From NCBI GenBank assembly GCA_023129415.1, contig JAGMCF010000192.1, forward strand, positions 1 to 60,135: 60,135 bases of DNA. The letters are read 5' to 3'. Shown here piece after piece: positions 21,133-28,727 of this stretch; position 1 is the first letter of the stretch; every line of letters starts with the position of its first letter. The DNA comes from Candidatus Cloacimonadota bacterium (GTDB lineage Bacteria; Cloacimonadota; Cloacimonadia; JGIOTU-2). Both the position numbers and the translations under genes were made by a program. The notes beneath the pieces are model-generated. The model worked only from the letters and a program-made list of their open reading frames with translations, had not been told where the DNA came from and made no database searches.

Positions 21133-22518
21133 CTAAATTTCAAAATAATTATCAATTTCTTCTCTTACTTCTTTAATCAATTTCTTTTTTTTTTCTTTTA
21201 ACTCAAAAGCTTGTTTTACAAGTTTTGTGATTTCATTGATAGAATTTTTATCTAATATAGGTATTTCGAATTCCTTTAATCTTTCTTCTCTTAAATGCGG
21301 AATTGTTGAAGCTACAACCGTTCTTCTTATTGCAGGATAAAGACCTGTTTCTTTTAAAGACAGTACCAAAAACAAATATTCTTGTGTTAAATTATATTTT
21401 TTAGCTTCTATTTTTAATCTTAATCTTGTCATTCCTGATGCAATAATTGCCTCATCATTTTTTGTAATCATCCCAGTCATTCCGACTTTTCCGTCTTTTG
21501 TAAAAACTACATCTCCTACTCTAATATCTTGCTTTAATTCTTGATAAATTTCTTCTGGGATATAAAAATCAGGGAATTGATCTACTTCGAAATTTACAAT
21601 GTCAGAAGTTCTAATAAATGGAACATCGGTATCTTTTTTATTTAAGTATTTATTGTAATTATAGCTTCCAACTTCATCGCCCTTTTTTACGGTAGCAATT
21701 TCGTCAAGAGAAACAGTTTTCCATTTTTTTTTAATAGTATTTAATGTCTTTACATAAAAAGGATAAGAATATTTTGGTGTCCATAAATCTACATATTTAA
21801 AATCAGAAAGATTCACAGAATAAAATTTTTCTTTTTCAATTTTTGAAAAATCAATATTTAACTTACGATAAAAAAGATTTTGGGCTTTATTTAGTAATGA
21901 AAGAGATTTTTCTGCGGTTTCTTCTGCTTTTGCAACCAAGTCGCTTATTTTCTTTATTCTTTTTTTTGGAAGTTCAACAACTTCAATGTTTCTGATATCG
22001 TTAAGATTTAATTTATCTTGAAGTTGTTTTTTCTTGTTTTTCTTAATTTGTAATAAGGCTAATTTTGAAAGTAAAAAAGCAAAAATATAATTTTTATTCG
22101 TTTCTTTTTTTAATCCAACGCCGATTATATTTTGGCTTATATTAACTTCGGGAAAACGCTTTCCAATTCTCAAAATTTTCCCCAAAGTTCCTATTTTTGA
22201 AAAAGCAATATCTCCGTGTCTTAAAATAGTTTTGAAGTTGGCTTTATTGTCTTCTTCTGTGATATAAACTAAATCTTCTGTTCCCAATTCAAAATATTTT
22301 AGATTTGATATTCTCAAAAAAGGTATTCCCTTATTTTGATATCTTTCGGCTTTTAAATCAAAAATTCCTTTCTTGATAAATTTAGAATATTCAGAAATCT
22401 TTTTATGTTGGTAGTTAAACAAAACATCATCAATAAATTTTCCAATAATCCAAAATCCAGGCTCAAATCTATCATCTTTTTTTATGCTATCTATATTAAT
22501 TGTAATTGTTTTTAACAT
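21133..22518 (-). CDS. Type I-like restriction-modification specificity subunit (HsdS-like)
   Basis: Two target-recognition halves: KGIPFLRISNLKYFELG...GDIAFSKIGTLGK and KDTDVPFIRTSDIVNFE...GDVVFTKDGKVG. Confidence 0.9.
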   Translation of the reverse strand: MLKTITINIDSIKKDDRFEPGFWIIGKFIDDVLFNYQHKKISEYSKFIKKGIFDLKAERYQNKGIPFLRISNLKYFELGTEDLVYITEEDNKANFKTILRHGDIAFSKIGTLGKILRIGKRFPEVNISQNIIGVGLKKETNKNYIFAFLLSKLALLQIKKNKKKQLQDKLNLNDIRNIEVVELPKKRIKKISDLVAKAEETAEKSLSLLNKAQNLFYRKLNIDFSKIEKEKFYSVNLSDFKYVDLWTPKYSYPFYVKTLNTIKKKWKTVSLDEIATVKKGDEVGSYNYNKYLNKKDTDVPFIRTSDIVNFEVDQFPDFYIPEEIYQELKQDIRVGDVVFTKDGKVGMTGMITKNDEAIIASGMTRLRLKIEAKKYNLTQEYLFLVLSLKETGLYPAIRRTVVASTIPHLREERLKEFEIPILDKNSINEITKLVKQAFELKEKKKKLIKEVREEIDNYFEI

Positions 22519-22530
22519 TTTTAAAACCCT

Positions 22531-24354
22531 TTAAAAGTTAAATTGCTTTTCTTTTGCCCATTCTTTAAATTTATCTGCAACTTTCAAAATATCATCGTCT
22601 TCAAGTTTTTTTCCTCTTCTATCATGTCCGCAAGTTTCAGCCACAGCCATAAAAACAGGGTATTTTTTAGGAATTTTACTTTCAGGAAGTTTTTGAAATA
22701 TCATTATTGTTGTTTTTGTAGATGTATTTGGCATAAATGTTTCAAGAGGAACATCAATTACCGCAATTAGCCTGCCTTTCTTTAACAACCAATTTCTAAT
22801 ATAACCCAAACTTTCATTCCCATAAACACCATCAGGCAAAACTATTGCCATTTTTCCGCCATCTTTTAATAACTGCAAACATCTTTCAATGAATAGAATC
22901 TGTGGTGCTTCTTTATCTTTTAATTTCCCTTTTTCCCATTCGCCAGTTTTTTTATTTAATTTCCATTTATGCCCTAATTCAAATTGTTTTAATTTATCTT
23001 CACCACGAACAGGAATTTTTGAACCAAATGGCGGATTAGTTAAAAGAATACTAAATTTCCCCATATCTATTTTTAACATTGTTTTATCTTTCCAATTTTC
23101 AGGTTTTTCTAAACTATCCTCACAAAAAATACCGCTTTTACCATCTCCAATTATCGCCATATATGCTTTGGCTACTTTGGATAAGAAATAATCTTTATCA
23201 ATCCCTCTAATTTTGTTTAAAGCAACTTCCATTTTTTCTTCTTGAAGATTACTCTTATTCCAATTATATTTTTCGCCCTCTGTATCAAGTTTTTTCCAAA
23301 CATGTCTTAATGCTTCAATTAAAAACCCGCCACTACCACAAGCAGGATCAATTATTAAATCCTCATCATCAGGGTCTAAAACATTAACCATCATTTTAAT
23401 AACATTTCTTGGGGTAAAAAATTGCCCTTGTCCGCCTTTTAATGCATGCCCTATAAATGTCTCAAAAGCATCAGCAATAACATCTCTTTCTGCCTCGATT
23501 AAACAATAATTCTGTAATTCACCAACTACATAAGCAATAGATTTAGCATCTAAATTTATTACATCAATTTTATCTAAAACTTCTTTATATTTTCTTTTTA
23601 CTAATTCAAACAAATCTAAAATTCTTTTCTTTATATCTTCTGCTTTTTCATTAACGCCAGCTCTAAAAGTAACTATGTCGTCTGGCTCTGTGAATCTTTC
23701 ATCGTAAATTTTACAGAAAATAATATTAATAAGTTGCTGTGCCAAAACTTCATCTCTTGTAGCCCCAATAGTATTCGCAGCTAAATGATTTCTAATCGCT
23801 TTGAAAGTTGCTTTAAGATTGTGTGTAGGTTTTAGGTCTTTTCTTTTAAACTTACCAACATCTTCAACTCTTTGTCCAAATTGTGGAATGTTTGGAATTT
23901 CTTCAAATTCTATTCTGCCTGATTTTTCAACTTTTCTTAGAAAAAGTCTTTCTTCACCATTAAACCATACACCTAGAAATGCCCTTGAAAATCTTAAATA
24001 ATCCTTTAACTGTGTTTTTCCGTCTTTCCTTGTTTTCTTTTTACATTCAACAACAATTAAAATATTGTCTTCTGTATGATTTTCTGAATTAAAGACAGCA
24101 ATATCAACAGGATATTCTTTTCTTGTATCTGAAGGTCTTATCTTAACTCTCCATTGAGGTCTTGTTTGGATATGGTCTTTTGGATATTCATAATCTTCAA
24201 CAAGTTGCTTAGAGAATACTTGAACTGCTTCAATTTCTTCAGGTTTTTTTTTAATATATCTTCCAGAGATATAATCTATTACAAAACCACTCTTATCCTC
24301 CGGTTCTACTTTAATTTCTTCTTTTTTTTCTTCGTATAATATTTTGCTCATCAT
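22531..24354 (-). CDS. N6-adenine DNA methyltransferase with N-terminal HSDR_N-like nuclease domain
   Basis: DPACGSGGFLIEALRH and LLTNPPFGSK; N-terminal YPVDIAVFNSENHTEDNILIVVECKKK resembling PD-(D/E)xK. Confidence 0.9.
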   Translation of the reverse strand: MMSKILYEEKKEEIKVEPEDKSGFVIDYISGRYIKKKPEEIEAVQVFSKQLVEDYEYPKDHIQTRPQWRVKIRPSDTRKEYPVDIAVFNSENHTEDNILIVVECKKKTRKDGKTQLKDYLRFSRAFLGVWFNGEERLFLRKVEKSGRIEFEEIPNIPQFGQRVEDVGKFKRKDLKPTHNLKATFKAIRNHLAANTIGATRDEVLAQQLINIIFCKIYDERFTEPDDIVTFRAGVNEKAEDIKKRILDLFELVKRKYKEVLDKIDVINLDAKSIAYVVGELQNYCLIEAERDVIADAFETFIGHALKGGQGQFFTPRNVIKMMVNVLDPDDEDLIIDPACGSGGFLIEALRHVWKKLDTEGEKYNWNKSNLQEEKMEVALNKIRGIDKDYFLSKVAKAYMAIIGDGKSGIFCEDSLEKPENWKDKTMLKIDMGKFSILLTNPPFGSKIPVRGEDKLKQFELGHKWKLNKKTGEWEKGKLKDKEAPQILFIERCLQLLKDGGKMAIVLPDGVYGNESLGYIRNWLLKKGRLIAVIDVPLETFMPNTSTKTTIMIFQKLPESKIPKKYPVFMAVAETCGHDRRGKKLEDDDILKVADKFKEWAKEKQFNF

Positions 24355-24384
24355 TCCTCTTTATTTTCAAACATTAATATTCAT

Positions 24385-24430
24385 TCTACAATTTCCCAAT
24401 AGCCGCCTTTAGCAGGTCCAACTTTTTATA
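24385..24430 (-). pseudogene. Orphan C-terminal tail remnant KVGPAKGGYWEIVE*
   Basis: Reverse-strand peptide matches the C-terminus of ORF 27364-27561 (KRIGPAKGGYWEIVE). Confidence 0.6.
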
Positions 24431-24448
24431 AATCTGTTTTTGATCAAG

Positions 24449-25192
24449 TTATACTTTTATTGGTAATTTTTTAGAATTTTCTAAATCTTTGGTAAGTTTT
24501 TTATAACACCTATCTATTGTAAATGGAATATTTTTATGAAAATTTTCAATAAAACTTTTTAGTTCATAGTCTTTTTTATATGTAAATGGTCTCTTTTTAG
24601 GATTATCTGGTATGGGAATTTTTAAGGTTTCTTTTTCCACTGTTGCATCAAAAGTAGTATCTATATTCTTTGCTATTATTGCTTCATGTGTAATTGCATT
24701 CCTAAACTTTTCTAAAGTTTTCCACCATCTTTTTTTTATTAAAATTTCAGAAGTATATTTATAAAATTCAGAATTAGGCATTTTCTGTTCAAATTCCTTA
24801 AAAATTGTATAGAAATAAATTTTTGTATTAGGATCAGAACTTAAGAATTTAAATAGACTATTAACCTCATGAGCAAGCGAATCAAAAATACTCATAACGC
24901 TCATAAAATAACCATCAATATAAAGGTTACAATATCTTGCTATTTCTACTTTATCTAAGGACATGATGACAGTGACAGTTTGTGTTTTTTCCCCCAGTGT
25001 TTCAGAGTAGGCAAAATTATCTCCACTGAAATTTTTAATTTCGTTAATATAATAATTTGATTCCCATAACTTTTGCTGAACTGAAAAATGGAAAATATCA
25101 AAATCGCTCTTTATAATAGATTGTTTATTTTTATTATAATAATATTCAATCTTTTCTTTAAATTTTTTACTTATAGACTTTCTTATAGCCAT
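24449..25192 (-). CDS. Uncharacterised protein with HEPN-like R-x4-H motif
   Basis: 247 aa, helix-rich; KTLEKFRNAITHEAII (R164-x4-H169); 6 bp after the Ntn-hydrolase-like gene. Confidence 0.55.
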   Translation of the reverse strand: MAIRKSISKKFKEKIEYYYNKNKQSIIKSDFDIFHFSVQQKLWESNYYINEIKNFSGDNFAYSETLGEKTQTVTVIMSLDKVEIARYCNLYIDGYFMSVMSIFDSLAHEVNSLFKFLSSDPNTKIYFYTIFKEFEQKMPNSEFYKYTSEILIKKRWWKTLEKFRNAITHEAIIAKNIDTTFDATVEKETLKIPIPDNPKKRPFTYKKDYELKSFIENFHKNIPFTIDRCYKKLTKDLENSKKLPIKV

Positions 25193-25198
25193 AATAAA

Positions 25199-25966
25199 TT
25201 AATATTCTCCTTTTAATTCTTTTCTTTGTATCCACTTTGCACCTTCCGGAGTAATTACTAATACATCAATATGACCACCTACATTTTTGGAACGAGCTTG
25301 AAAACGTATAGTGTCAATTGTAGTACGTATTGCATAAATTGAAAAATCAACTGCATCTTGAAGGGACATTGCACCCCATATAATTGGATGTTTTTTCATT
25401 GTAAGGGCTTTACCTTTGGGTCCTGGAAGTGAGGATGGTTGTAGAATTCCAGCAAGAACATCGATTTGTCCTGACCAAGTTGAACCATAATCTAGACTAC
25501 CATCTGGTTTAACATTTTTCCTTTGATTAAAGATATTTTTACCCACATGACAATAATAAACATATGGAATGCTCTTTTTATCCTCTTTTTTGTATCCAAC
25601 CACATGGAATCCTGTATCAGCTTTCGGAAAATCTGATTTAAAAAAATCCAACAATTTTTTAGGGATTGTGGTAACATTATCTTCATTAATTAACTTTTCT
25701 TCAACAAATCTTTTAATGTGACTTGAGGTTGAGATTCCTCCTAAAAGATCTTGACCAAAAGAGTTAACTCCTACTTGAAAAATTGGATCGTTTGATTTAC
25801 TAAATCTTGATAAAAGAAAGGTTTTGTAAACATTATCTGAATTAATTGTCTCGATTTTTTTTAAAGATTTTCCATCAGGTGATTTGGTTTCAATAGTTAT
25901 TATTTGACGGCTATCAGAAGCCATAACAATGCCTTCTGGCACAAAGGTTGTTATTACTAAACTCAT
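25199..25966 (-). CDS. Proteasome-like Ntn-hydrolase with penultimate Ser
   Basis: MSLVITTFVPEGIVMASDSRQ resembles proteasome/HslV/Anbu N-termini; with Ser2 as residue 1, the conserved Asp falls at position 17. Confidence 0.65.
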   Translation of the reverse strand: MSLVITTFVPEGIVMASDSRQIITIETKSPDGKSLKKIETINSDNVYKTFLLSRFSKSNDPIFQVGVNSFGQDLLGGISTSSHIKRFVEEKLINEDNVTTIPKKLLDFFKSDFPKADTGFHVVGYKKEDKKSIPYVYYCHVGKNIFNQRKNVKPDGSLDYGSTWSGQIDVLAGILQPSSLPGPKGKALTMKKHPIIWGAMSLQDAVDFSIYAIRTTIDTIRFQARSKNVGGHIDVLVITPEGAKWIQRKELKGEY

Positions 25967-26078
25967 ATTTTACCTCCATTTGTTATTTGTTTTTTATTCA
26001 CTATTTAGATATACTTAAATATTTATATAAAAGAATCTTTGTTGTTTTTAAAATTATTAACTAAACTCATTGGAAGTG

Positions 26079-26453
26079 TCAACTTTTTCCATAATATTTA
26101 TTTATTCTCTCCCTATCTTCATTCTCTTTATCACCTTTATAATAAATTTCAATAAATTCTATGATATCCTCCTTCTCATAATAAGCATAAATTATTCTTA
26201 TGCCACTTCTTGAGCCGGTGCCTTTTAATGATTTACAGGCAAATTTTGTAACTTTATAAATTTGGGGATATTTAATACCCAATCCGGAAATTTCAAAAAT
26301 TCCTTTATTATCTATATCTAATTTATGGAACATTTTTAATTGCACTTTAATGAAATTTTTCAGATCGGAATCCAGAGTCCTAAATCTCTTCTTCAACTTT
26401 TTGAACTCCTTTTCGAATTCACTGAGCTGTGTGATCTTGTTAAAGAGCTTCAT
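26079..26453 (-). CDS. RelE/ParE-like toxin
   Basis: FEKEFKKLKKRFRTLDSDLKNFI...SLKGTGSRSGIRIIYAYYEKEDIIEFIEIYYKGDKENED. Confidence 0.75.
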   Translation of the reverse strand: MKLFNKITQLSEFEKEFKKLKKRFRTLDSDLKNFIKVQLKMFHKLDIDNKGIFEISGLGIKYPQIYKVTKFACKSLKGTGSRSGIRIIYAYYEKEDIIEFIEIYYKGDKENEDRERINKYYGKS

Positions 26454-27230: not shown

Positions 27231-27363
27231 TTTTTTCCTTTCAAATAACCAATCAATTGTTTGTAGGATTTTCTGTCAAGTTATTGTAAGATTTTATTAC
27301 ATTTATATGTTTATAAGTTGTATTATTTTTTACAACTAAATTTATTTTACCTAATTATATTAG

Positions 27364-27665
27364 TTACTCTACAATTTCCCAATAACCACCTTTAGCTGGT
27401 CCGATTCTTTTTAATTTTCCATCTTCCTTAAGTTTTTTAATATTCCATTCAACTCCCTTAACTGTTAAACCTATCTTTGCAGCAAGTTCTGGTATGGTTA
27501 TTAAAGGGTTCTCTTTAATAAGAGCAATTATATTCACCCCGGTTTTCACCCTAATTTTCACCCTAGCTTTTGGGGTAGTACTCTCTAATTCAACATATTC
27601 ATTACTCTGCTTAAAAACGATATAAAAATGCGTGTCGGTATATTCTATTTCAGGATAGGGAGAAT
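27364..27665 (-). pseudogene. Truncated wHTH C-terminal fragment, AlbA_2/ATP-binding type
   Basis: Open frame without ATG: PEIEYTDTHFYIVFKQSNEYVELESTTPKARVKIRVKTGVNIIALIKENPLITIPELAAKIGLTVKGVEWNIKKLKEDGKLKRIGPAKGGYWEIVE*. Confidence 0.55.
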
Positions 27666-27674
27666 TTTCTTTTT

Positions 27675-28727
27675 TTATTCATTTTTCTCCAATAACCTTT
27701 TTTCCATTTCTATAAATTCTCTTTCTCTGGTTAATTCTCTTTCTAATTCTTTTTCTGTTGGTAAATACGGTTTATATTTTGAAGCAAATATCTGTTTTTT
27801 ATCCTTAATTAAAATATATTTAACCATTGTTTCGTTTTTATCGGAACATAAAATCAAGCCAATTGTAGGATTATCATTTTTTTGTTTTTCTTCCTTTTCA
27901 AAATAACGAACATAGAAGTCCATTTGTCCAATATCTTTATGTGTAAGTTTGCCGATTTTCAAATCGATTAGAACAAAACATTTTAAAATGAAATTATAAA
28001 AAACAAGGTCAATATAAAAGTGGTCACCATCTACAGTAATTCTTTTTTGCCTTGCTACAAAAGAAAAACCTTTTCCTAATTCTAACAAAAATTGCTGTAA
28101 TTTGTCAATTAATGCTTTTTCAATATTTTTTTCCAGGTACTTTTTATTTTCTTTTAAATCTAAAAATTCCAGAACATAAGGATCTTTAATGACATCTTTT
28201 GGTTGGTTAAGGGTTTAACCTTTTACGGATAATTCCAGAACTTCTGCTTTATCCTTACTTAATGTTATCCTTTCGTAGAGAAGTGAATTTATTTGCCGTT
28301 CTAATTCTCTTGTGCTCCATTTATTATTGATTGTTTCTATCAAATAGAAATCTCTTGCTTTTTCTTTTTCAACCCGGAGAAGCAAACGGTAATGTGTCCA
28401 GCTCAATTCTGAACGCAGTGCGTTCACTTTTGGGAAGATCGAATAAAAAGTTCTCATATACCACAAGTTTCTTTCATTAAACCCTTTTTCATAATCATAA
28501 GTAAGTTTTCTTGAAAGTCCTTTAATCAGGGATTTCCCATATTCTGCTCGGTCTTTGCCCTTTTGTTCCTGTTCAATAATAATTCTACCAATCTGCCAAT
28601 AAGCCTGAACCATAGCAAAATTAATAGAACGACATGCTGTGCTTCTTGCTTCTTCAAGAACTTCTCTTATGTTTTGATATGCTGTTTCAATTACAGGTTG
28701 TTTAATGAGATTATTGTTTATTGACAT
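27675..28727 (-). pseudogene. YhcG/DUF1016 PD-(D/E)xK nuclease interrupted by one in-frame TAA
   Basis: Two ORFs share a frame: ...LELSVKG*TLNQPKDVIKDPYVLEFLDLKENKKYLEKNIEKALIDKLQQFLLELGKGFSFVARQKR... Confidence 0.9.

Follow-up and report, generated by a model that had tools for sequence, protein, structure and literature searches.

The window, meaning the whole stretch of 60,135 nucleotides of a Candidatus Cloacimonadota contig that was analysed, carries a gene for a proteasome-like Ntn hydrolase followed directly by a gene for a HEPN protein of the Cthe_2314 type. The same pairing was identified once more, in a genome of another phylum, and we put the probability of a functional link of some kind between the two proteins at about 0.45. 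Both families are already known. The pairing is new as far as the literature was searched (work combining HEPN, proteasome, Ntn and defence describes no such pair), and it gives a modest hint of joint function. The original prediction had picked out the pair from the DNA. Both ORFs were confirmed, in coordinates and sequence, and the ORF features, residues and setting that it had seen are not attributable to chance. The features of the pair are as follows.

24449..25192, minus strand: Cthe_2314-type HEPN protein, 247 aa, second gene of the pair (PF18730; homolog in the same position at locus L017)
24686..24688, minus strand: codon of His169 in the R-x4-H motif (invariant in 13 HEPN relatives)
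24701..24703, minus strand: codon of Arg164 in the R-x4-H motif (invariant in 13 HEPN relatives)
25199..25966, minus strand: proteasome-like Ntn hydrolase, 255 aa (MSLVITTFVPEGIVMASDSR...), identified from the ORF, AF2 model, Foldseek and profile match
25823..25825, minus strand: codon of Lys48, equivalent to proteasome Lys33 (no exception in the 30 rows of alignment A7; in register with the Lys of 8oix_H)
25913..25915, minus strand: codon of Asp18, equivalent to proteasome Asp17 (Asp in 40/44 relatives, Glu in 4/44)
25961..25963, minus strand: codon of Ser2, the predicted N-terminal nucleophile once Met is removed (Ser or Thr in 44/44 relatives)
26053..26082, minus strand: promoter-like site TTGACA-18-AATAAT 5' of the Ntn gene (consensus scan, 11/12 matches)

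The two genes are separated by 6 bp (25193-25198). A clear ribosome-binding site (GGAGG) lies ahead of the Ntn gene, the first of the pair, and the promoter-like site at 26082-26053 is the highest-scoring of the scanned stretch (24300-26300), as a consensus match only and in a stretch that shows no clear excess of such sites over shuffled sequences. Terminator-like sites were not found within the same stretch. These signals make it likely that the two genes are co-transcribed, as a two-gene operon.

The upstream ORF is well supported by its fold as a proteasome-like Ntn hydrolase. In Foldseek the AF2 model (pLDDT 90.6, pTM 0.87) retrieves both Anbu and beta chains of the proteasome, with probability 1.00 (best E 4e-8). 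A profile built from 30 relatives matches the proteasome beta chain 8oix_H among PDB sequences (E 8.6e-5), and in this alignment the GVVMASDSR segment and the catalytic Lys are in register. The family had been proposed from residue spacing at the N-terminus, where removal of Met makes Ser the first residue and Asp the 17th, and the relatives bear this out. Among the 44 distinct relatives whose N-terminus is readable, residue 2 is Ser in 34 and Thr in 10, with no other residue present, a pattern that fits selection for catalysis; the Asp17 position is acidic in all of them. Glu replaces Asp there in two clostridial relatives (L035 2722-3402 and L036 6786-7469). The Lys of DNVYKTFLLS, suggested earlier as the Lys33 equivalent, is invariant, and D18 and G71 are near-invariant; Gly71 was matched to proteasome Gly47 by eye.

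Besides a same-family genome (L002) and viral contigs, 27 other genomes contain relatives of the Ntn protein; across the 30 aligned rows, identity to the window protein spans 26-73%. No family covering the window protein was found in Pfam, NCBIfam, PADLOC or PHROGs; phrog_5990 is matched by 14 of the 30 relatives (best E 1e-7). The window protein and two phage relatives gave no match when searched against a phage collection.

At the level of sequence, the assignment of the downstream protein to the Cthe_2314-type HEPN proteins is supported. It matches PF18730 (Cthe_2314-like HEPN) with an E-value of 1e-8 and 35.8 bits, above the curated cut-off of 27.1, and its counterpart at L017 reaches 31.0 bits against the same cut-off. 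The motif FRNAITHEA had been read as the R-x4-H motif of HEPN proteins, and R164 and H169 are, together with Met1, the only invariant columns among 13 divergent relatives. This pattern, too, fits selection for catalysis. The assignment rests on sequence because the AF2 model, an all-helical core, is weak (mean pLDDT 66) and has no PDB match that is significant by E-value; the top probabilities, up to 0.69, are for HepT-type HEPN toxins, and the fold evidence is suggestive only. The AlphaFold and Foldseek comparison proposed in the original prediction recovered proteasome beta and Anbu for the Ntn protein, and the HEPN call stands on PF18730 and on the conserved Arg164 and His169. Within Cthe_2314-like HEPN, the window and L017 proteins are a divergent subfamily. 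A weak Enc34 ssDNA-binding match of the HEPN protein falls below cut-off and was discounted. The HEPN protein was searched for in viral contigs and was not found, and a plasmid collection searched with both the Ntn and the HEPN protein returned no match.

The stretch around the pair is rich in toxin-antitoxin and restriction-modification genes (AbiE, Panacea, type I R-M-like) and also contains gene debris. As had been noted earlier, the pair lies between restriction-modification and Panacea genes: downstream is a type I R-M-like methyltransferase and specificity pair (PF02384, 2e-42; PF01420, 2e-16), and upstream is an HTH-Panacea protein (PF13274, 6e-20). The methyltransferase and specificity genes (21133-24354) also match MADS components at sub-threshold scores (MAD2, 440 bits with a cut-off of 720; MAD5, 130 bits with a cut-off of 400). 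PADLOC defence models matched neither the Ntn nor the HEPN protein of the window. An ORF of 124 aa (26079-26453) lies 3 bp downstream of the HTH-Panacea gene; it resembles a RelE-type toxin by eye, has no significant Pfam match, and is likely the partner of the HTH-Panacea gene. The Ntn, HEPN, RelE-like and Panacea genes are bracketed by a direct repeat of 57 nt (81%; 24375-24431 and 27358-27414) that consists of the tail of a winged-HTH gene; it is possibly paralog debris or the trace of an insertion. Further on, a DUF1016/YhcG protein is split across ORFs 27675-28088 and 28215-28727, with PF17761 and PF06250 on separate ORFs, and is probably a broken gene.

The second pair is encoded in a Chloroflexota genome (SZUA-161; L017), where a HEPN gene lies directly behind an Ntn gene on the same strand. 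The two HEPN proteins are 30% identical over 227 residues (BLASTP E 3e-32). Gene order and strand are common to both pairs, the spacing is 6 bp in the window and 35 bp at L017, and the catalytic residues are present in both. At L017 the HEPN gene is wedged into a dapF-Ntn-dapL block that lacks HEPN in close relatives; in L014, L018, L020 and L024, no gene separates Ntn from dapL, and the distance is about 50 bp or less. A tblastn search of other Dehalococcoidia found no HEPN remnants between Ntn and dapL, and the ORF in this position in L012 belongs to no recognisable family. In the Ntn tree the window protein groups with that of L011, outside the Dehalococcoidia relatives among which the L017 protein is deeply nested. 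The pair therefore does not derive from one recent transfer. It seems either that HEPN was recruited to Ntn genes on two or more occasions, or that an old pair lost its HEPN gene many times. In both genomes the GC content of the HEPN gene is 7-8 points lower than that of the Ntn gene (24.5 vs 32.4% in the window and 43.9 vs 51.3% at L017).

Conserved co-occurrence, offered earlier as a check, is thus limited to this one independent second case, and the evidence that the pairing recurs in two phyla is thin. Only one of the 27 Ntn genome loci (L017) has a HEPN neighbour and 26 do not, an absence that is less firm at the several loci that end close to the Ntn gene. Most of its relatives lack a HEPN gene alongside, so the Ntn protein is not dependent on HEPN. 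To survey the HEPN side, a profile of the window and L017 proteins was used to search 664 genomes from four phyla. Close copies were identified in 1 of 125 genomes of the window's phylum and 1 of 400 Chloroflexota genomes, both adjoining an Ntn gene, and in none of 44 genomes (phylum of L029) or 95 genomes (phylum of L022). The order to which L017 belongs yielded only one distant, unpaired copy (L039). Of the 400 Chloroflexota genomes, 21 contain Ntn relatives. In this sample, therefore, the HEPN subfamily always occurs with Ntn, as two cases in two phyla, and Ntn occurs mostly alone. Chance would place a HEPN gene next to any of the 27 Ntn loci with a probability of about 6e-5 to 1.3e-4, a rough figure that rests on one event; the calculation allows at most 3 HEPN copies among the 664 genomes and assumes that a genome has 1900 genes. 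A general pairing of Cthe_2314 HEPNs with Ntn genes was ruled out in 399 genomes of the L031 phylum (titled Clostridia) and 301 Chloroflexota genomes; 11 Cthe_2314 HEPN genes of another phylum have no Ntn neighbour. The description of the pair as a new two-gene system has weak support: there is one recurrence, in another phylum, and the 26 Ntn loci without HEPN and the 11 HEPN genes without Ntn speak against it.

If the two proteins are linked, the first gene would produce a proteasome-like N-terminal-serine hydrolase whose Ser1 is exposed by methionine aminopeptidase, with catalysis predicted to involve the Ser1/Asp17/Lys33-type residues. The second would produce a Cthe_2314-type HEPN protein, a predicted metal-independent RNase acting via Arg164 and His169. 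The lower GC content of the HEPN gene in both genomes suggests that it may be mobile, toxin-like cargo recruited behind a resident proteasome-like gene. The Ntn protein may then restrain the HEPN protein or turn it over, and the pair could constitute a toxin-antitoxin or abortive-defence unit. Control of HEPN by Ntn is the favoured direction because HEPN toxins are often accompanied by a protein that controls them, and the protein encoded alongside in this case is a protease-fold enzyme. In this specific form, with the Ntn hydrolase as a dedicated regulator that would hold down a HEPN RNase toxin within a toxin-antitoxin or abortive-infection module, the proposal is unlikely by our own estimate.

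The pairing may instead be a coincidence, in which a solitary HEPN gene inserted twice behind a stand-alone, perhaps housekeeping, Ntn gene whose promoter it uses, with no interaction between the products. We consider this quite possible, at somewhat short of even odds. Coincidence would agree with the mostly solitary occurrence of the Ntn relatives, whose genes are spread across housekeeping and phage contexts, with the higher AT content of the HEPN gene relative to its neighbour in both genomes, and with the abundance of movable toxin-antitoxin and restriction-modification genes and gene debris around the window pair. However, both close HEPN copies lie directly behind a same-clade Ntn gene, an arrangement for which random placement gives a probability of about 1e-4.

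Were the two proteins linked in the opposite sense, Ntn would serve as a sensor or as an activator, switching HEPN on by cleavage or modification, or the two would have a third target in common as a defence effector pair. HEPN RNases are common defence effectors (Anantharaman et al., 2013; PMC3710099), and the window pair does lie among AbiE, Panacea and type I R-M-like genes, but no sensor domain is seen, no PADLOC model is matched by either protein, and the L017 pair is located among amino-acid biosynthesis genes rather than in a defence island. We thus regard this arrangement as improbable. A still more doubtful reading, to which we give very little weight, is that HEPN is a helical protein that binds RNA or protein and is not an RNase, with Ntn a pseudo-enzyme or a connectase-like ligase. 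The low-confidence HEPN model, the lack of significance of its PDB matches and the existence of connectase, which has the same fold and is able to ligate rather than cleave (PMC8665760), are compatible with it. Yet R164 and H169 are the sole invariants besides Met1 across divergent relatives, and residue 2 of the Ntn proteins is always Ser or Thr. If the favoured reading of Ntn as the regulator of HEPN is true, it would provide the first functional context for an uncharacterised proteasome homolog; a link of any kind would connect the fold of the proteasome with the control of toxins or defence in bacteria.

The Ntn protein resembles the 22 new groups of proteasome homologs described by Fuchs, Alva and Lupas (2021; PMC8665760), for example PMI, WPH and FC, in its proteasome-beta fold with Thr1/Ser1-Asp17-Lys33, lack of a propeptide, broad scattered distribution and absence of an obvious AAA+ partner. 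An insertion of about 20 residues before the last helix (~176-200) resembles the H3/H4 insertion of PMI-2 to PMI-6, by description and not by a group test. Genomic contexts that hint at specific function were not found for the new homologs (PMC8665760), whereas the HEPN partner of the window protein would be one, and it offers a testable hypothesis for one uncharacterised proteasome homolog. Fold and catalytic residues are shared with the 20S proteasome beta subunit and Anbu, at about 11-18% identity in fold alignments and a TM-score of about 0.5-0.6 on the query. In contrast to these, the window protein lacks a propeptide, and neither an alpha-subunit gene nor an ATPase gene accompanies it in the window.

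The HEPN protein shares with the Cthe_2314-like HEPN proteins the Pfam match above cut-off and the R-x4-H motif. No genome association is listed for Cthe_2314 HEPN in Anantharaman et al. (2013; PMC3710099), whereas here the partner is a proteasome homolog. As in HepT-MntA pairs, the HEPN gene adjoins a second enzyme gene, and its top-probability (non-significant) fold matches are HepT-type chains; the partner, however, is an Ntn hydrolase and there is no nucleotidyltransferase. HepT proteins have a Tyr two residues after the motif His. The motif of the window protein, R-x4-H-E-A, lacks this Tyr.

Ntn relatives also occur in quite different settings. In Dehalococcoidia (L014, L015, L016, L017, L018, L020 and L024) the gene is fixed beside dapF and/or dapL, genes for synthesis of lysine and cell-wall precursors, with an hflX-like gene further on at several of these loci. 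This fixed place among biosynthesis genes suggests a housekeeping role there, and the family would merit study in this context even if the link to HEPN fails. Viral-contig relatives (L007 6001-6645, L008 5001-5654, L010 5001-5633 and L087-L096) retain Ser or Thr at residue 2. The contigs resemble Firmicute phages or prophages, and several of their Ntn genes lie between tail and holin/lysin-like genes; in PMC8665760, Table 1 has no phage mark for its Firmicute clusters. In three rumen bacteria (L029, L030 and L037 7001-7756) the order gpsA-like, Ntn, radical-SAM-like is kept. The genome that contains the window also encodes a second, longer proteasome-like protein of 438 aa (contig C14; L006 367-1683) that matches phrog_5990 and whose neighbours resemble fatty-acid synthesis genes. 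In the same-family genome, the Ntn relative (L002 1501-2933) has a CPKC-containing insertion and is followed by a Fic/Doc gene.
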